This document shows, piece after piece, positions 22,226 through 30,097 of a DNA stretch of 40,523 nucleotides. The translations under genes were made by a program, and so were the position numbers. Under the pieces are notes generated by a model. That model had not been told where the DNA came from, ran no database searches, and saw nothing but the letters and a program-made list of their open reading frames with translations. The DNA is taken from IMG/VR virus record IMGVR_UViG_3300035698_022419, positions 1 to 40,523 of that record; one strand, given 5' to 3'. Source of the DNA: a virus. Position 1 is the stretch's first letter. Every line of letters starts with the position of its first letter.

Positions 22226-24050
22226 TAATTTTTATGATATGAAAAAGGTTCCTGACAAGGAACGGGTGAAGGCGGAGAAGAACGTCGTGTTGATAGTTCC
22301 AGATGCGGACTATGACGCCTCGTGGTTCTTTAAGGAGGCGCTCATTGACAGCCATGAGGCGGCGGTTACGTGGCCGAAGAAGTCAGTCGCCCTCGTGCAA
22401 GAGGTATCGGTTATGCAGCCGAAGGTGGTTGTTCAGGTGGGGCCGGAAAGAATTTCCAGGCGATACCGCTGGATAGGTGATAATTGCATTATTGAGGATG
22501 GTCTAAGGAGGGATATTCATGCGGCGTCCATGGACGGCTTCGTGGTCCTCCACCATCACGACGAGTACAGCCTGAAGGACGGCCTTGGGACGGTGAAGCA
22601 GCTGGCCAAGATGCTCAGGCGTCAGCGCCGGAGCTTCTGCGCGGTGACCAACCATGGAAGCGTGGGTGGCTGGATTAAGCAGAACAACGCCTGCCTGAAG
22701 GCCGGAATCAAGCCGATATTCGGGATGGAGGCGTACGTCTCCGACTACCGCGGAGACGACCCGGAGAAGAGGAAGGCTCACCGCTCGGCGAACCACCTCG
22801 TGCTCCTGGCGCGGACCGAGACTGGCTTCTTCAATATCATTCAGATTCACAACGACGCCCAGCTCAACGGATTTTACTACAGTCCTCGAATGGACCATGC
22901 CGCCGCGAAGACGTGGGGAGAGGGGGTCATAGCTACCAGCGCCTGCATGGCTGGTGAGATTCCAAGACTGCTCATGCAGGAGCCCTTGCTGAAAGAGGAG
23001 AAGGATTCAGACGCAGACTATCAGGCGTATCGGCAGCTTTTCATGGAGGAGAAATGGGCAAAGGCCGTGGAAATCTACGAGCACTACCGGGACAGCTTCG
23101 ACGAGTTCTACATTGAGATTCAGATTATCGAGTTCGAGATGCAGAGGGAGTGCAACCGCAGGCTTATCAAGTTTGCCAGGGAGGTCGGGGCTCCCCTGAT
23201 TATGGCGTGTGACAGCCACTACCTGGACTCCAGTCACGCGGACACTCACGACCTGCTCATGTACATCAGGCAGGGGAAGACCAAGTTGGACGCCGTCGAG
23301 AAGGACGAGGACGTCTGGGACTTCGAGGTCCGCAATCTGTTCTACCGCAGCGCCACGCAGATGGAGAGGGTGTTCTTTGGCGGCTTCGTCGACAAGGATA
23401 AGAACGAGTGGCCTCCGTTTGAGGACGCCGTCTTCACTGAGGAGGTATTTCGAGAGGCCATGGCGAACACCCTGTCGGTGGCCCGCAGGATAGAGGATAT
23501 CAAGCTGGACGATACGGTCAAGCTGCCAAGAATGTATCCTGACAGCAAGTTCATCCTCCGGGAGAAAGCCAATGCTGGTTTCAAGCGACTGGGACTCAAC
23601 AAGCATCCGAAAAAGCAGACCTATGTGAATAGGTTGCGGTATGAATATGAAGTCATCACCAAGCTGGGCTGGGCAGACTACTTTCTCATTATGGAGAAGA
23701 TAGTCAGTGCGGCCAAGGAGGAGTTCTTTGACGAGGTTGGCGAGTGGGCCATCGGCTACGGACGTGGATGTTTTCATCCGTCAACTCGGGTGGTTATTAA
23801 GGATGGTTCTTCTAAATTCATTGGTGACATTGTGATTGGGGATGAGGTGGTTACTGATGATGGTTCAGTCCAACAAGTAGATGCGGTTCATACTTATGAG
23901 GTGGACGAGGATATGTTGGAGGTAGAGGTTGAAGATGGTCGTGTCGTTGTTTGCACAGCCGACCATGAATGGAAAGTTGTCAGAGGCGGAGAATGTGAGT
24001 GGGTTGAGGCGAAAAACCTCCAAGTTGGTGACGAAATCGTAGAAGTTTGA
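22215..24050 (+). CDS. dnaE: DNA polymerase III alpha, N-terminal part fused to intein 1 N-half
   Basis: A 611-residue product: 518 residues of DnaE extein plus 93 residues of split intein. An N-terminal extension of about 100 residues precedes the PHP domain (LHHHDEYSLKDG, AVTNHGSVGGW, IFGMEAYVSDY, ACDSHYL). The DnaE helical region follows up to the invariant AIGYGRG at the end of the extein. In ordinary DnaE the next residues are SAAGSL, which are found at the start of the second dnaE gene (25175). Start is TTG 22215, with GAGAGGTG five bases before it; the ATG at 22239 has no such site. The product should join the C-terminal part by trans-splicing. The PHP segment has Asn where the TDHG motif has Asp. 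Confidence 0.9.
   Translation: MNLDNFYDMKKVPDKERVKAEKNVVLIVPDADYDASWFFKEALIDSHEAAVTWPKKSVALVQEVSVMQPKVVVQVGPERISRRYRWIGDNCIIEDGLRRDIHAASMDGFVVLHHHDEYSLKDGLGTVKQLAKMLRRQRRSFCAVTNHGSVGGWIKQNNACLKAGIKPIFGMEAYVSDYRGDDPEKRKAHRSANHLVLLARTETGFFNIIQIHNDAQLNGFYYSPRMDHAAAKTWGEGVIATSACMAGEIPRLLMQEPLLKEEKDSDADYQAYRQLFMEEKWAKAVEIYEHYRDSFDEFYIEIQIIEFEMQRECNRRLIKFAREVGAPLIMACDSHYLDSSHADTHDLLMYIRQGKTKLDAVEKDEDVWDFEVRNLFYRSATQMERVFFGGFVDKDKNEWPPFEDAVFTEEVFREAMANTLSVARRIEDIKLDDTVKLPRMYPDSKFILREKANAGFKRLGLNKHPKKQTYVNRLRYEYEVITKLGWADYFLIMEKIVSAAKEEFFDEVGEWAIGYGRGCFHPSTRVVIKDGSSKFIGDIVIGDEVVTDDGSVQQVDAVHTYEVDEDMLEVEVEDGRVVVCTADHEWKVVRGGECEWVEAKNLQVGDEIVEV
23769..24050 (+). mobile_element. intein 1, N-terminal half (split intein)
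   Basis: The intein half starts at Cys (TGT 23769-23771) directly after GYGRG. Block A is CFHPSTRVVIKDG and block B is VVVCTADHEWKV with the T-x-x-H signature; FIGDIVIGDEVVTDDG lies between. It ends with a stop after GDEIVEV, exactly where split inteins end their N-half. The DNA is A/T-richer than the extein. Confidence 0.92.
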
Positions 24051-24105
24051 CTATTCTCATATACATCCTACAGTAGGGGGTACGCCACAACTATAGGAGT
24101 CGATA

Positions 24106-25104
24106 ATGAGTCGTCCAATAAAACGTGATATTCAGGATTTTCCAGAGTGGGTTCGTTGTTATGTCATTGAAAAGACAATGACGAGAAGAAAAAACCAATA
24201 TTCGGAAGACAAGACTCATTCTGATTATTTGTCCATTGGCGTTGTTCCGTTTACAGTTATGAGTGAAAATGAATGCAAAACGTATTTGAAGTGGGCAGTG
24301 TCGGGGGTGTGCATTGTTTGTGGTTTCAATTTTGAGTCAGTATGGAGCAACATGTGGCTGAGAAAGAGACACAGGGGCGAAGAAGTTTGCGGACGGTGTT
24401 GTCGTAAAGAAGCATATACTGATGAATGGTGTAAAAATAATTCAAAATCCCAAAGTCTGGTTCAGGGAACTGAAATAGCAAGAGAGAAAATGTCTCGTAT
24501 CCTTAAAGAGGTTCACAAGGAAAACCCAGATATAGCAAAAAAAATATCTATCGGGCTGAAGAAGGCATATAGAGATAATCCAGAGCTTCGACAGAAGATT
24601 TCGGCTTCATCTAAAAAATTGTGGGAGAATGTAGAATATCAGGAGAAAGTATCTCCAAGAGGATTCTATCACGGATATTTCAATTCAAAATTTGGTAAAA
24701 TTTTCTACGCAAGTTCATGGGAGTTGTTCTTTCTCGTGTGGTGTGAGAACAATGAAGACGTGGTCCATTTCAGCCGGTGTGGTGACCGAGTAAAATATAT
24801 CAAGCCTAATGGAGGCTCTGCTTACTATCATCCAGATTTTGATGTTCGAATGAGAAATGGTAATGTTGAGATTGTTGAAGTAAAGGGCTCCCGACAGGAG
24901 TGGGACATTATAGATAGAAAAAGAGTCGCTGCTGAGAAATACTACAAAGACAAAGCATATCGAATTCTCTTCAGGGAAGACCTTGTAAGAATGGGGTGTT
25001 TTGTATCAGCTAAAAAAGTAGCTGATTTTATTGAAAAACTTTCAAACGAAGGAACAATAGAGAGTTATGGCAAAGGTAAAAGCAGTAAGAAAATTTCCAT
25101 ATAA
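24106..25104 (+). CDS. free-standing PD-(D/E)XK homing endonuclease
   Basis: A 332-residue endonuclease gene lying between the two halves of the split intein. A possible zinc-binding segment comes first (CIVC ... CGRCC, about residues 69-98). NUMOD3-like DNA-binding helices follow (IAKKISIGLKKAYRDNPELRQKISASSKKLW). The catalytic domain reads YASSWEL, then YYHPDFDV and EIVEVKG, that is E ... PD ... E-x-K, near residues 200-265. It would cut intein-free dnaE and spread the split-intein locus. ATG 24106 follows AGGAG at 24095-24099. The last 38 bases overlap the second dnaE gene. The gene is clearly A/T-richer than its surroundings, a sign of separate origin. The 55-base gap before it holds nothing else I recognise. 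Confidence 0.85.
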   Translation: MSRPIKRDIQDFPEWVRCYVIEKTMTRRKNQYSEDKTHSDYLSIGVVPFTVMSENECKTYLKWAVSGVCIVCGFNFESVWSNMWLRKRHRGEEVCGRCCRKEAYTDEWCKNNSKSQSLVQGTEIAREKMSRILKEVHKENPDIAKKISIGLKKAYRDNPELRQKISASSKKLWENVEYQEKVSPRGFYHGYFNSKFGKIFYASSWELFFLVWCENNEDVVHFSRCGDRVKYIKPNGGSAYYHPDFDVRMRNGNVEIVEVKGSRQEWDIIDRKRVAAEKYYKDKAYRILFREDLVRMGCFVSAKKVADFIEKLSNEGTIESYGKGKSSKKISI

Positions 25105-25174
25105 AGGGAATGTGCATGACTTGACTGTAAGAAACAAGCATTCTTACAATGCGGAAGGTATGGCTGTTCACAAT
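25067..25174 (+). mobile_element. intein 1, C-terminal half (split intein)
   Basis: Thirty-six residues from the ATG, ending GMAVHN, with block F visible as VHDLTVRNKHSYNAEG. The terminal HN and the following Ser (+1) of SAAG are the normal residues for C-terminal cleavage and ligation. The length matches the C-halves of natural split inteins such as cyanobacterial DnaE (about 36). Confidence 0.92.
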
Positions 25175-28100
25175 TCAGCAGCCGGATGCTTGATTTCGTG
25201 GTGTCTGGGACTAACCGACTGTGACCCGATTGAGCATGGCTTGCTGTTTGAGCGTTTCCTTGATGAGGGCAGACCCGACCCGCCCGACATTGACACTGAC
25301 TTCCACCCTGGCATTCGGCAGCGAGTGAAGGACCGCATCGTCGAGATGTTCGGTGAAGAGAAGACGTGCTCCATCGGAACCTACAGCAGCTATAAGACCA
25401 AGGCGGCCATCGTCTCGGTGGCGAAGGCGCTGGGGTACGACGTGATGGAGGCGCAGGCGGTGACCAAGGAGATGGACCCGCTGAAGAGCTTTGAGACGGA
25501 CGACGGCGACGAGGTCGTGGACAAGATGGACCTTGACGAGCTCGTCAACCACTATCCGAAGCTGAAGGAGTACTTCCTGAAGTACCCGGAGGTCCAGATT
25601 CACGCGGCCGTCATCCGCAACCAGGTGCAGCACATGGGCAAGCACGCCGGTGGCGTCATCATTTCCGACATGGACCTGAACGGCAAGATTCCTGTCCAGT
25701 ACGACAGCGGCAAGAACATCATCTCCTCCTGGGCGGAGTCGGGCAATTCGGCTGAGCTGAGCGAGGTTGGCCTGGTCAAGTACGACATCCTCGGATTGAA
25801 CAACTTGCCGGTCATCGCCGACTGCGTGCGCCTGGTCAAGGAGAACCGTGGAATCGAGATAAAGAGGGCGGACATCCCGCTGGACGACAGGCGGACCATC
25901 AGGATGGAGGCGAAGAGCGAGCTTCGGGGAATCTTCCAGTTTGAGAATCCGGCGACGAAGCCGATAGTGGACGCCGTCGGCATGGAGAGCCTGAATGACG
26001 TCAGCGCCATCACGAGCCTGCTGCGGCCCGGTCCGAAGGACATGGGCATGCACCTTGAGTACGCCGAGCGCAAGAATGGAAAGCCGTACGAGACGCTTCC
26101 CTGCCTGGAGTGGATATTCAAGGACACCTACGGCATCATGGTGTACCAGGAGCAGATGATGCAGATTTCTCAGGAGCTGTGCGGCTTCGACGGGCCGATG
26201 GCGAACAAGCTGCGCAAGGCGTGCGTAACTCTTGACAGTGAGTTTGTTTCAAGGTCAAGAGGTCCGATAACACTTGGCAGGATGTTGAAGGAGGGGTATA
26301 AGGAAGACTTATTTTTACAGAGAGGTAGCTTTAGTGAGCTTAGTTGGGCACCAATTGGGGAAATATGGAAGACAAATAAGAAACGGGTGCGTAGGACGAA
26401 GTCATCGTCGGGACATTTTGTTGATGCCACAAGACTCCATCAGTTTTTGACAGATGCCGGATGGACGGCACAACAAAGACTGGAGGACGGAGACAGAATG
26501 GTTTGTGCTCGCAGGCTAGAATGGGATGGTCGTGATGAGATTAGTAATGACTTTGCCATAGTTGTGGGAGGATTGTTGACCGAGGGATATACACCTGTCG
26601 GCAGGAATGTGAGCACCTTTACAAGTTATGATGTTGATTTTATGGGTGTGTTTGTGGATGCTTTTGAGAGGGAATTTTCATGTAATGCAGGCAGTTTATC
26701 GCCCAATGGACAGGTGTATAGAATAAAGGCTGATGCGTGTCGTAAGATATTCAAGGTAATGTCGAAAGGATTGTCTGGAGATAAGTTCGTTCCAGATGTT
26801 GTAATGGGAGCAACGAAAGGGGTTATGAAGGATGTTCTTTCGGTTATGCTGGGTGCCGAAGGAGGAACGAGCGAGGACAATGGGACGTTTGAGTACACTT
26901 CCAAGAGTTACAGGATGATTTGCCAAGTCAGGATGATGCTTTTGAGATTTGGAATTAGGTCAATGCTGGGGGAGAAGTATCATCCTGAATATGGGGTTTT
27001 TTACAGATTGAATATAAACGAAGTGAAAGACCAGTCTCGTTTGGTTTCCCTGTCGTATTTGTGGCCAAAGGTAAAGCGAGATGCCTTGATAAGGCGTCTT
27101 GGCATGAAGACGAAAACGAATTTTACTGCTGACACAGTACCACAGAGGGTGGTCAGAATGATGATGCGTCAATATCCTGATGTCGGGAATGGAGAAAGCG
27201 GCACACTTTATACGAGCGATATTTCAAGAAGCAGATTTGAAAGGATTGCTTGTAAAACAAAAGACAAGAAGTGGATTGGGCTAGCACGGTCTGACTTCTG
27301 GTTTGACAAGTACTCCGATTCAGATGAGGTCGTGTCGAAACATATGGATGTGTATGACTTTAGGGTTGATGGAGATGAGCCGAACATGATTGTAAATGGG
27401 ATGGTGATTCACAATTGTGGCAAGAAAATCAAGGAGCTGATGGTCTCCATCAAGAAGAAGTTCGTCGAGGGGGCGCAGCCACGCATCGACGCTGGAGAAG
27501 TGACGGCTGGTCAGGTGGAGGAGCTTTGGGATTTGGTCGTAAGTTTTGCTCGTTACGGTTTTAATAAATCAGTTGACAAAGATACCAAGGTGATTACATT
27601 AGATGGAGTGAGGCGCATAGAGGATGTGCGTCCCGGACAATTCGTCTGGTGTTTCAATGGAGAGTCATTTGAGCAGACAGAGGTGGTTGAGCTCCATGAC
27701 CATGGTGTCCTGCCAGCCTTTGAGGTGGTATTTGATGACGGCTCCAAAGAGACTTGTACCATTCATCACAAGTTCTTGACGGAGCATGGGCAGAAGCCTC
27801 TCGGAGAGATACTTGAGTTTGACCTTGGAGTGTATGCTGATGTCGAAGGCCAAAGGAGGCTGGATTTGCAGAACGTGTGGAGACGTGTTTCCGACGAAGC
27901 GTGCCGCTGCGGAGCACCGAAGGGAGACAGGTCATTCGCAGAAGGGGCATCCTCAGATGACGGTGTGCGTGGGATGTGGCGTGGTGTTGCCGAAGAAGAA
28001 ATGCGAGAGACATCGTGCGAATTGCAAGAAGGCGATAGAAGTTGCGAGTCAAAATCGAAGGGGTCGGGCCTTGGAGAATATTCGCAAGGCACAAGAATGG

Positions 28101-30097
28101 CAAAAGGGCGAAGGTCGAGAGGCTCATGTCAAGTCTCAAAAGAAAGCCTCATTGGCGGCTGCAAAATCACCAAAGGCTCTTCTCGCACGGTCAAAGAACA
28201 TGACTGCTATCAACAAGACGCCAGAGGCAAGAGAGCGGGCTTCGAGGGTGGCCAAAAAGACATCGGCCAGACCGGAGATACAACGGAAAAGGGCAGCGGT
28301 ATTGGCGAAATGGAGAGAGGAGAATCCAGAGAAATTTGCAGAGATAACAAGAAAAGCTCAGAAAGCCGCAAAGCCGTCAAGAGCCGAAGCGTGGTTACAG
28401 AAGAATGTTTTGGATGGATTGGAGTTCAAGCGAAATGTTCAAGTGAGATGTCAGAGTATTCGGAAGCAGACGGATTTTGTAAGGAAGGGCTTTTGGATAG
28501 AGGTGGACGGATGTTGGCACTTCGGAATGGAGTTCACCAACAAAAGGTATTCGTCGGAGAAGGTTCATCAGAGAGATGTAATGCTGAACATGGAAGCACA
28601 GAGGCGAGGCATTACTCTTGTGCGACTGGGGTTGAATTGCTGGAGAGGATATGGCAAGAGAATCCTCAAAGACGAGTGGCGAGAGTTGTTGGAAGAACTT
28701 TTGAAGAACCCAATTCAGGGCGTTTGGCTGTTCGGAGAGTGCTACACGCAAGGTTTGTGGGGACCAGACAAATGTACGACTTGGAAGTACATCACGAGTC
28801 CCACAATTTCGTTCTTGAAAGCGGATTAATTACATCGAATAGCCATGCTATCACGTATTCGATGATTACGACGGCTGAGATGTGGCTGAAGCACCACTAC
28901 TTTCTGGAGTACATGACGGCGCTGGTTCTGAACACCAAGAGAGGCAAGGAGAAGCATGGTTCTGACGACATCATGGTGGACTACCTGAACTACGCCCGCA
29001 AGAGGGGGATTGAGGTTCTTGGGCCGTGGGTAAACGCGCCGGAGCCGGACTTCCACATTGAGGGAGACTCCATCAGGTTCGGGCTCGCCCATGTGAAGAA
29101 CGTGGCAAGCGCTGCGAAGAATGTGGCGCTCATAGCTGCTAAGGAGCCGTTCCGCGACATGACAGACTTCCACGAGCGATGCGTGTACGAGACGACCATC
29201 AAGTCAGGGGCGAACGCTGGTAACGAGAGGGCCACGCGGCCGAACAACAAGGTGGTGGAGAGTCTGGTTCACGCCGGAGCCTTTGACTGCTTCGGAGACA
29301 GGAACGCCGTCCTGACCGAGTACAGCATAGCCAGGCTCGGTATTCCGTGTCCGACCGACGAGGAGTTGGAAGAGGGGCGCAAGGCCGTCTTGAAGGATGG
29401 AGAGGAATGCCCCGGAATCAACAAGGGCGATGCTGACTTCTCCGTTGTCAAGGGCGTTGGTGCCGTCGGTGAGCACATCAAGGCCATCGCCATGCAGGAG
29501 CCGTACGAGAACATGGCGGACTTCTATGAGCGGTGTGTTTTCGAGACGCAGGTGAAGTCGGGCAAGAACGCCGGGGCCATCAAGCAGTCGCGGCCCACGA
29601 AGCGCGTGGTGGAGAACCTCATATACGCTGGCGCGTTCAGGGGGTTCGGCGACGAGAGGACGATGTTCCGGGAGTACCACCTGGCGAAGAACAAGATGAA
29701 GCCGGTCAGCTTCACCGACCAGGAGATTGAGGAGAAGGAGGTTTCGATGATTGGCCTCTGCCTCTCCAAGGAGCCGGTGTGCCAGCTCTACATGGACCTC
29801 ATCAAGGAGCAGAAGTGGACGACGCTGGGGAGTCACGGCAACTACGCCAAGCCAACCGTCTTCGGACGGGTGACGTCGGTGGAGGCCAGGACTTCGAAGG
29901 CCGGCAACCCGATGTACATCGCGAGGATGAGCGACGGCTTGGACAGGTTGGACTTCTTCGTGTTCAAGGGCGGCATGGAGTATTTCAGGGACAGCGTGAA
30001 GAAGGGCCAGCTGGCCGCTATCCCCTTGGACAGGTTCGAGGACAGCCTGACCAGGTTCTTCGATGACAGGCGTGAGATATTAGTGGTAGAAGAGTAA
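25067..30097 (+). CDS. dnaE: DNA polymerase III alpha, C-terminal part with inteins 1C, 2 and 3
   Basis: A 1676-residue precursor: intein 1 C-half (1-36), extein, intein 2, 51 extein residues, intein 3, then 418 extein residues. The polymerase active site is present: SAAGCLISWCLGL, PDPPDIDTDF (D74 and D76), and HAGGVIISD. LLRPGPK, IMVYQEQMMQI and FARYGFNK/SHAITYS are further DnaE signatures. After splicing with the N-part the enzyme would be about 1336 residues, longer than E. coli DnaE (1160), partly through a duplicated helix-hairpin-helix module (about 29090-29670). The C-terminus includes an OB-fold-like section (FGRVTSVEARTSKAGNPMYIARMSD). Translation starts inside the endonuclease gene, overlapping it by 38 bases. 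Confidence 0.92.
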   Translation: MAKVKAVRKFPYKGNVHDLTVRNKHSYNAEGMAVHNSAAGCLISWCLGLTDCDPIEHGLLFERFLDEGRPDPPDIDTDFHPGIRQRVKDRIVEMFGEEKTCSIGTYSSYKTKAAIVSVAKALGYDVMEAQAVTKEMDPLKSFETDDGDEVVDKMDLDELVNHYPKLKEYFLKYPEVQIHAAVIRNQVQHMGKHAGGVIISDMDLNGKIPVQYDSGKNIISSWAESGNSAELSEVGLVKYDILGLNNLPVIADCVRLVKENRGIEIKRADIPLDDRRTIRMEAKSELRGIFQFENPATKPIVDAVGMESLNDVSAITSLLRPGPKDMGMHLEYAERKNGKPYETLPCLEWIFKDTYGIMVYQEQMMQISQELCGFDGPMANKLRKACVTLDSEFVSRSRGPITLGRMLKEGYKEDLFLQRGSFSELSWAPIGEIWKTNKKRVRRTKSSSGHFVDATRLHQFLTDAGWTAQQRLEDGDRMVCARRLEWDGRDEISNDFAIVVGGLLTEGYTPVGRNVSTFTSYDVDFMGVFVDAFEREFSCNAGSLSPNGQVYRIKADACRKIFKVMSKGLSGDKFVPDVVMGATKGVMKDVLSVMLGAEGGTSEDNGTFEYTSKSYRMICQVRMMLLRFGIRSMLGEKYHPEYGVFYRLNINEVKDQSRLVSLSYLWPKVKRDALIRRLGMKTKTNFTADTVPQRVVRMMMRQYPDVGNGESGTLYTSDISRSRFERIACKTKDKKWIGLARSDFWFDKYSDSDEVVSKHMDVYDFRVDGDEPNMIVNGMVIHNCGKKIKELMVSIKKKFVEGAQPRIDAGEVTAGQVEELWDLVVSFARYGFNKSVDKDTKVITLDGVRRIEDVRPGQFVWCFNGESFEQTEVVELHDHGVLPAFEVVFDDGSKETCTIHHKFLTEHGQKPLGEILEFDLGVYADVEGQRRLDLQNVWRRVSDEACRCGAPKGDRSFAEGASSDDGVRGMWRGVAEEEMRETSCELQEGDRSCESKSKGSGLGEYSQGTRMAKGRRSRGSCQVSKESLIGGCKITKGSSRTVKEHDCYQQDARGKRAGFEGGQKDIGQTGDTTEKGSGIGEMERGESREICRDNKKSSESRKAVKSRSVVTEECFGWIGVQAKCSSEMSEYSEADGFCKEGLLDRGGRMLALRNGVHQQKVFVGEGSSERCNAEHGSTEARHYSCATGVELLERIWQENPQRRVARVVGRTFEEPNSGRLAVRRVLHARFVGTRQMYDLEVHHESHNFVLESGLITSNSHAITYSMITTAEMWLKHHYFLEYMTALVLNTKRGKEKHGSDDIMVDYLNYARKRGIEVLGPWVNAPEPDFHIEGDSIRFGLAHVKNVASAAKNVALIAAKEPFRDMTDFHERCVYETTIKSGANAGNERATRPNNKVVESLVHAGAFDCFGDRNAVLTEYSIARLGIPCPTDEELEEGRKAVLKDGEECPGINKGDADFSVVKGVGAVGEHIKAIAMQEPYENMADFYERCVFETQVKSGKNAGAIKQSRPTKRVVENLIYAGAFRGFGDERTMFREYHLAKNKMKPVSFTDQEIEEKEVSMIGLCLSKEPVCQLYMDLIKEQKWTTLGSHGNYAKPTVFGRVTSVEARTSKAGNPMYIARMSDGLDRLDFFVFKGGMEYFRDSVKKGQLAAIPLDRFEDSLTRFFDDRREILVVEE
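26222..27415 (+). mobile_element. intein 2, contiguous with LAGLIDADG-type endonuclease
   Basis: 398 residues between LRKA and CGKK of DnaE. It starts CVTLDSEFV (block A) and has a block B-like VDATRLHQFLT. Two LAGLIDADG-type helices are seen: FAIVVGGLLTEG and VLSVMLGAEGG, each with an acidic residue. It ends VYDFRVDGDEPNMIVNGMV-IHN (blocks F and G), followed by Cys +1. All canonical splice residues are present. The DNA is A/T-richer than the flanking extein. Confidence 0.9.
27569..28840 (+). mobile_element. intein 3, with an out-of-frame endonuclease gene in its centre
   Basis: 424 residues between FNK and SHAITYS of DnaE. Block A is SVDKDTKVITLDG, so the first residue is Ser. Block B is CTIHHKFLTEHG. 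The end is QMYDLEVHHESHNFVLESG-LITSN, with Ser in place of the usual penultimate His and Ser at +1. Between about 27830 and 28730 the intein frame reads as hydrophilic Gly/Ser/Glu/Arg-rich sequence without any domain, yet it has no stop. That stretch encodes an endonuclease in another frame (27840-28829). Confidence 0.85.
27840..28829 (+). CDS. Zn-finger/EDxHD (Vsr-like) homing endonuclease, nested out of frame in intein 3
   Basis: A 329-residue gene one register away from the intein frame. A C2H2 finger (CRTCGDVFPTKRAAAEHRRE...H) and a second Cys cluster (CVGCGVVLPKKKCERHRANC) come first. NUMOD-like helical repeats follow (KTPEARERASRVAKK; AAVLAKWREENPEKFAEIT). The catalytic domain has RKQTDFVRKGFWIEVDGCWH followed by HQRD and a GITLVRL strand, matching the E-D-x-H-D layout of Vsr-like homing endonucleases. 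GGAG at 27827-27830 is nine bases before ATG 27840; upstream ATGs at 27786 and 27834 lie inside the intein N-domain or too close to the site. The last 30 codons overlap the intein C-splicing domain. Confidence 0.82.
   Translation: MSKAKGGWICRTCGDVFPTKRAAAEHRRETGHSQKGHPQMTVCVGCGVVLPKKKCERHRANCKKAIEVASQNRRGRALENIRKAQEWQKGEGREAHVKSQKKASLAAAKSPKALLARSKNMTAINKTPEARERASRVAKKTSARPEIQRKRAAVLAKWREENPEKFAEITRKAQKAAKPSRAEAWLQKNVLDGLEFKRNVQVRCQSIRKQTDFVRKGFWIEVDGCWHFGMEFTNKRYSSEKVHQRDVMLNMEAQRRGITLVRLGLNCWRGYGKRILKDEWRELLEELLKNPIQGVWLFGECYTQGLWGPDKCTTWKYITSPTISFLKAD
29090..29670 (+). repeat. tandem duplication of the DnaE helix-hairpin-helix module
   Basis: Two similar protein segments lie in tandem in the extein, about 29090-29320 and 29440-29670. 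Both contain F-x-ERCV-x-ET, KSG-x-NAG, RP, VVE-x-L and AGAF-x-x-FGD in the same order. The second copy keeps the better hairpin (VVKGVGAVGEHIKAI). Bacterial DnaE normally has one such module. Confidence 0.8.

Follow-up and report, generated by a model that had tools for sequence, protein, structure and literature searches.

A viral DnaE intein that very probably carries its homing endonuclease out of frame within its own coding DNA

The gene for DnaE (DNA polymerase III alpha) in the IMG/VR virus record IMGVR_UViG_3300035698_022419, a 40.5-kb viral record analysed over its full length of 40,523 nt (hereafter the window), is broken by three inteins, of which the third (intein 3, 27569–28840) raises the question of how one stretch of DNA can encode a splicing element in the DnaE frame and a complete homing endonuclease gene (HEG, 27840–28829) in another. 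We consider it very probable that intein 3 is mobile and that its homing endonuclease gene lies out of frame within the intein's own coding DNA. Reading of the DnaE frame would give a precursor in which a disordered, hydrophilic linker connects two splicing halves, and from which the intein, judging by its splicing blocks, should excise itself and restore DnaE; reading of the +1 frame from an internal start would give a zinc-finger, Vsr/EDxHD-type endonuclease, which should cut intein-free DnaE alleles at FNK/SHA (slashes mark junctions) and thereby copy the intein into them.

The splicing blocks that the first-pass annotation, a model's reading of the letters, had seen at both ends of intein 3 were borne out. 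The DnaE open reading frame (ORF) 25067–30097 runs without a stop, intein 3 included, and the intein is contiguous in this frame (424 aa; + strand, as are all features of intein 3 and the HEG given below), inserted as FNK/S...TSN/SHA with its start reading FNK/SVDKDTKV and its end GLITSN/SHAITY. The intein-free DnaE homologs L002 and L003 read AFNKSHAITY, the exact absence of intein 3, and the splicing residues Ser1, Asn (28838–28840) and Ser+1 are all present. The N-terminal splicing blocks (27569–27826; Ser1 and the TxxH block B) were located by hidden Markov model (HMM) match and AlphaFold, and the C-terminal splicing blocks (28733–28840), with TSN before Ser+1 at their end, by TIGR01443, PF14890 and AlphaFold. 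Intein 3 matched the intN HMM (E 2.5e-37) and the intC HMM (E 1.0e-22; span 28733–28846), the source alignment of both models including intein 3 itself; TIGR01443 (C-terminal region) matched residues 1237–1259 of the ORF above its cut-off (E 7.5e-7), and PF14890 gave a weak match to intein 3 alone, below its cut-off (E 0.0053). In the AlphaFold model of the intein frame (22 input sequences), the predicted local distance difference test (pLDDT) score was 92–97 at approximately residues 1–90 and 390–424 and mostly 32–50 between them. The Npu DnaE and gp41-1 inteins were the top fold matches (Foldseek, 4kl5, Npu DnaE, E 1.4e-6), and the intein profile matched Npu DnaE at 5.7e-23. As modelled, the ends of intein 3 are a Hint fold, and the central linker is predicted to be disordered, in agreement with the first proposal. 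Mini-inteins occur at the same DnaE site in L011–L014, and those of Rhodococcus phages and a faecal phage at this insertion point are approximately 130–170 aa long.

The HEG likewise lies where it was first placed, together with its GGAG site and in a different frame, that is, +1 relative to the intein frame. It encodes 329 aa, from ATG 27840 to TAA 28827–28829, and is preceded by GGAG (27827–27830), a putative Shine-Dalgarno (SD) sequence 9 nt upstream of the ATG. Two zinc-finger-like motifs (27867–28025; C2H2 at 27867–27935 and CxxC..HxxxC at 27966–28025), which gave weak Pfam zinc-finger matches and were accompanied by zinc-finger proteins in the fold search, are followed by a helical repeat region (28026–28364), NUMOD-like by analogy (AlphaFold helices 63–175, pLDDT 79–95), and by a Vsr-like catalytic domain (28380–28709) with the motif E221-x-D223-G-x-x-H227 ... 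R-D246. In the family alignment of 21 HEG sequences, E221, D223, G224, and H227 are invariant and D246 is nearly so; the conserved E, D, H, and D are presumably the catalytic residues of the EDxHD family. The AlphaFold model of the HEG frame (21 input sequences) had a mean pLDDT of 82, mostly 82–97 in the catalytic domain with one loop at 58, and its best match in the PDB by Foldseek was Vsr (1cw0; prob 1.00, a moderate E of 1.7e-3, target TM score 0.61); I-Bth0305I was absent among the listed fold matches. The HEG gets no family name from Pfam, PHROGs, or NCBIfam. Hence, the EDxHD type first assigned to it is carried by the family alignment and the predicted fold match to Vsr, by which the HEG is a zinc-finger, Vsr/EDxHD-type endonuclease, and not by recognition in sequence libraries. 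EDxHD homing enzymes combine an active site like that of restriction enzymes with long DNA contacts made by multiple domains (PMC3943268).

The HEG core is placed between blocks B and F, the usual position of in-frame endonuclease domains, and the intein frame over the HEG DNA (27839–28732) is a stop-free, low-complexity linker that is predicted to be disordered. The overlapped DNA had first been described as linker throughout; it does cover the linker, but it also enters the C-terminal splicing blocks, so that 28733–28829 is truly dual-coding for these blocks and the C-terminal tail of the HEG. Since the last 24 residues of the HEG over these blocks (306–329) have pLDDT values below 50 and are predicted to be disordered, it is probably the intein that determines this tail.

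Is the open second frame a property of the HEG codons or of selection? When the HEG protein and its codon set were kept and the synonymous codons were shuffled, a mean of 16.3 stops arose in the intein frame (none of the shuffles at 0, n=20,000), whereas 0 are observed; a null drawn from the codon usage of the window gave a mean of 11.2. In the third frame, which serves as the internal control, the 12 stops present match the shuffle mean of 11.9. A stop in the intein frame arises only where a T-ending HEG codon precedes one that begins with AA, AG, or GA, and T ends 0 of 103 codons in these forbidden contexts against 61 of 221 other codons. These codon-aware nulls replace the uniform-base estimate behind the earlier claim that the second frame looks selected, and the claim itself stands: the open second frame is not due to chance. 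The overlap in the window is overprinting with both frames under selection, as seen from the avoidance of intein-frame stops and the conservation of the HEG. Selection on DnaE would keep the intein frame open, for which there is statistical support, and selection on homing may be what keeps the HEG sequence, whose conservation is observed.

Relatives of intein 3 show the same arrangement. Searches by single sequence, with exact peptides from either the HEG or the intein, found none, and a DNA pattern that matched the catalytic motif irrespective of the surrounding frame gave the first two homologs, both in viral contigs and both overlapped. The family was gathered by profile scans with the HEG and with the intein, duplicates being removed, and holds 17 distinct full-length HEGs in contiguous inteins (that of the window and 16 others), all in the +1 register. 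Summed over these 17 loci, the intein frame has 0 stops against approximately 244 expected, and T ends 0 of 1569 codons in forbidden contexts against 943 of 3424 elsewhere; the overlapped homologs thus keep the intein frame open, stops in which would have spoken against the first proposal. A further overlapped copy, L128, lies on the same contig as L054. Five distinct inteins (L034, L039, L043, L047, and L051) retain shortened out-of-frame HEG remnants with the intein frame intact and are stages in decay toward a mini-intein, in which loss of the HEG would leave the intein frame unharmed.

Eight related HEGs follow the N halves of split inteins, and here the stops observed (239) are close to those expected (256). 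Both halves were detected at L029, L030, L062, L068, L125, and L127, which makes these loci fractured genes, whereas the C half was not detected at L024 and L028; intein 3 of the window is instead one ORF with 0 stops between its halves. The split inteins occupy the same FN/S...TSN/SHA position, with DnaE domains recognised in 7 of 8. In the HEG tree, overlapped and split types are parted by one branch with a support of 100/100, and no member with the HEG in frame was found among the family loci. L031 and L032 were rejected as members, giving weak repeat matches and no intein.

The constancy of the +1 register has an explanation in the genetic code. Each stop in this register needs T at the third position of a HEG codon, so that, as dynamic programming showed, synonymous changes suffice to recode every HEG protein of the family without stops. 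Most of these proteins would need amino-acid changes to become stop-free in the other same-strand register, where, for example, Met followed by an A-starting codon always creates TGA. The constant register is thus explained without a single founding frame.

The distribution of these inteins points to mobility. Overlapped inteins are found in DnaE at the FNK/SHA site, 13 with a full HEG and 5 with remnants, and also in two other unrelated genes (L017/L055/L128 and L025/L026/L060). The distances between HEGs and those between inteins are correlated (Mantel r 0.74, p 0.0001), which indicates that the two travel together. Between L025 and L026, the intein differs at 1 of 1218 positions and the extein at 25 of 1062 (Fisher p 6e-8), and the 250-nt N block outside the overlap is also unchanged; the comparison of these sequences suggests a recent transfer (homing) of the intein into a diverged gene.

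How the HEG is expressed bears on the strongest alternative. In most members, a plausible HEG start is preceded by an SD-like site (the strongest are those of L020, L022, L038, and L120), from which the HEG is likely made by separate internal initiation; an energy scan in the window prefers the site before TTG 27813, with marginal significance (p 0.11). The main rival is that the HEG is made as a fusion with the N-terminal part of the intein through +1 ribosomal frameshifting, which fits both the constant +1 register and a HEG frame that is open for some codons upstream of the start. Some members, however, have an in-frame HEG stop just upstream of an SD-bearing start (for example, aggag-ATG 6001 in L019 and aaggag-ATG 5995 in L020), and we therefore regard frameshifting as improbable, though the best placed of the alternatives to internal initiation.

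A less probable alternative holds that the linker is the functional protein domain, for example one regulating splicing, and that the HEG frame is secondary. Its composition is indeed biased beyond synonymous expectation: in comparison with recodings over the 17 loci, hydrophobic residues are depleted (combined z -8.0), and Gly/Ser (z +6.3) and Asp/Glu (z +6.5) are enriched, a pattern not shown by the controls (split HEGs and upstream host coding regions), while the Lys/Arg shift recurs in the host control and lacks specificity. Linker identity among homologs is, however, 0.185 against 0.179 in stop-free synonymous recodings, with a few of the closest pairs above the null, and the linker sequence is therefore not conserved overall. 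Together with the predicted disorder and the persistence of remnants and mini-inteins that lack most of the linker, this null-level identity led us to reject a functional linker domain as quite unlikely. We read the information as held by the HEG frame, so that the intein frame need only stay open and soluble.

The nearest precedent is the ShiLan domain, an out-of-frame HNH endonuclease inside a phage methylase without an intein, described in 2025; the nuclease has 195 aa, lies in the third frame of its host, and has no SD, and its authors, who detected no splicing domain, expect that the insert remains part of the protein (PMC11855218). In both systems, an endonuclease lies out of frame inside a host gene with an open frame and shows a patchy, homing-like distribution, and by the same logic of an open host frame above a hidden nuclease (PMC11855218), intein 3 might be a non-splicing insertion tolerated by the polymerase. 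We give this very little weight, because the window has clear intein blocks, a predicted Hint fold, conserved TSN/S ends, and related mini-inteins at the same DnaE position, and because its nuclease is Vsr-like, not HNH; this nuclease lies in the +1 frame of the host. In the open-access literature, only ShiLan and its kin (PMC11855218; also PMC12613952) were found as out-of-frame endonucleases in an open host frame, subscription papers and preprints being mostly uncovered. The first-pass annotation knew of no out-of-frame nested case; this holds for inteins, in that no other intein with an overlapping, overprinted, or alternative-frame endonuclease was found in the same literature, an absence that is not proof, but not for host genes without an intein, where the ShiLan HNH had been described (PMC11855218).

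Chance, namely a second frame left open by accident in a Lys/Arg/Glu-rich gene, has in its favour that purine-rich codons can yield alternate frames poor in stops, but is refuted by the 11–16 stops expected for this very HEG protein, by the family-wide avoidance of forbidden contexts, and by the sister HEGs of the same family, which show no such avoidance, leaving it next to no probability. An equally negligible artefact, in which two assembly or sequencing indels moved an ordinary in-frame endonuclease domain out of frame, would suit the usual in-frame position of the HEG core, but is refuted by the identical register of 17 distinct sequences, which come from separate assemblies, by the approximately 16 stops that a recent frameshift would leave in the displaced intein frame, and by the HEG's own stop inside the C block; an indel of this kind, which would have undone the first proposal, is thus excluded.

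Against a mobile intein with an overprinted HEG weigh several observations. Intein residue 1 is Thr, an unusual nucleophile at this position, in L016, L021, L022, L023, L038, L041, L044, and L120. Ahead of ATG 27840, the window has a modest SD, and L021 lacks a clear one. Some of the controls for linker composition have smaller shifts of their own. The homing signature comes from one pair, L025/L026, and dual coding by itself also slows substitution in the intein. Finally, none of the searches among the isolate phages covered found a relative of the HEG, the sole match being partial and insignificant (E 0.5).

The overprinted HEG adds a third way of pairing an intein with an endonuclease, beside in-frame fusion and a free-standing HEG between split halves. 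Classical bifunctional inteins (in-frame LAGLIDADG or HNH) also carry the endonuclease between blocks B and F, but theirs is translated in frame within one polypeptide with the intein, whereas that of intein 3 is out of frame. Fractured genes, reportedly described by Dassa et al. in 2009, consist of a split intein with a free-standing EDxHD-type HEG between the halves; they have stops and separate ORFs and act by trans-splicing. Intein 3 shares their nuclease type, and split inteins at the same DnaE site come with HEGs homologous to its own; unlike fractured genes, it is one uninterrupted ORF that overlaps the whole HEG, and cis-splicing is expected. The cyanobacterial split DnaE inteins (Npu, Ssp) are the closest solved relatives of its splicing domain by sequence and fold and reside in the same host gene, but they are split, lack a HEG, and are sited at Y/CFNKSH, four residues upstream of FNK/SH.

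Could such inteins be a distinct, long-lived mobile-intein architecture and a link in the evolution of naturally split inteins? We offer this tentatively, as a possibility with the odds against it. A nested HEG would bring internal translation starts into the intein; the contiguous gene could then become a fractured one through a single intein-frame stop, and later loss of the HEG would leave separate intein halves. Two findings agree with this sequence of events: the fractured inteins of the sister loci occupy the same DnaE site, and the cyanobacterial split DnaE inteins are close relatives. The HEG tree, however, is unrooted as to direction, and most split members have their HEG in another register. 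Because the fractured DnaE sisters share the site, and because the splicing domain of intein 3 is closest to the cyanobacterial split DnaE inteins, the origin of split inteins becomes directly testable. The family, with approximately 1 kb of same-strand overprinting whose constraint is readable codon by codon in at least 17 divergent sequences, is also a natural test bed for overlapping-gene evolution, and endonucleases of this kind will escape annotation that allows a single frame per locus.

Two further inteins are, by their sequences, distant cases of the same arrangement. On the contig of L016, an intein in an SNF2 helicase (L129, 1000–1881) has an out-of-frame DUF559 HEG (E 5e-13) in the +1 register, with 0 of 105 forbidden contexts. 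L098 (3–7352) is a family A DNA polymerase (PolA) ORF with four intein splicing domains; it has in-frame LAGLIDADG and HNH matches, and one further intein (1384–2655) holds an out-of-frame DUF559 endonuclease (PF04480/DUF559, E 1e-9; +1; forbidden contexts 0 of 113). A gapped DUF559 pattern, meant as an unbiased survey of out-of-frame HEGs, returned nothing.

The window also holds genes for a helicase, a primase, and a UvsX-like recombinase, and its DnaE gene combines three different intein/endonuclease architectures. Intein 2 (26222–27415) is a classical in-frame LAGLIDADG intein. Intein 1 (23769–25174) is split, its N half running to 24050 and its C half from 25067, and between the halves lies a free-standing endonuclease gene (24106–25104), probably of PD-(D/E)xK type, of which 38 bases are shared with the C half in a different frame. 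An arrangement homologous to that of intein 1 is found in L002, with a 45% identical HEG.
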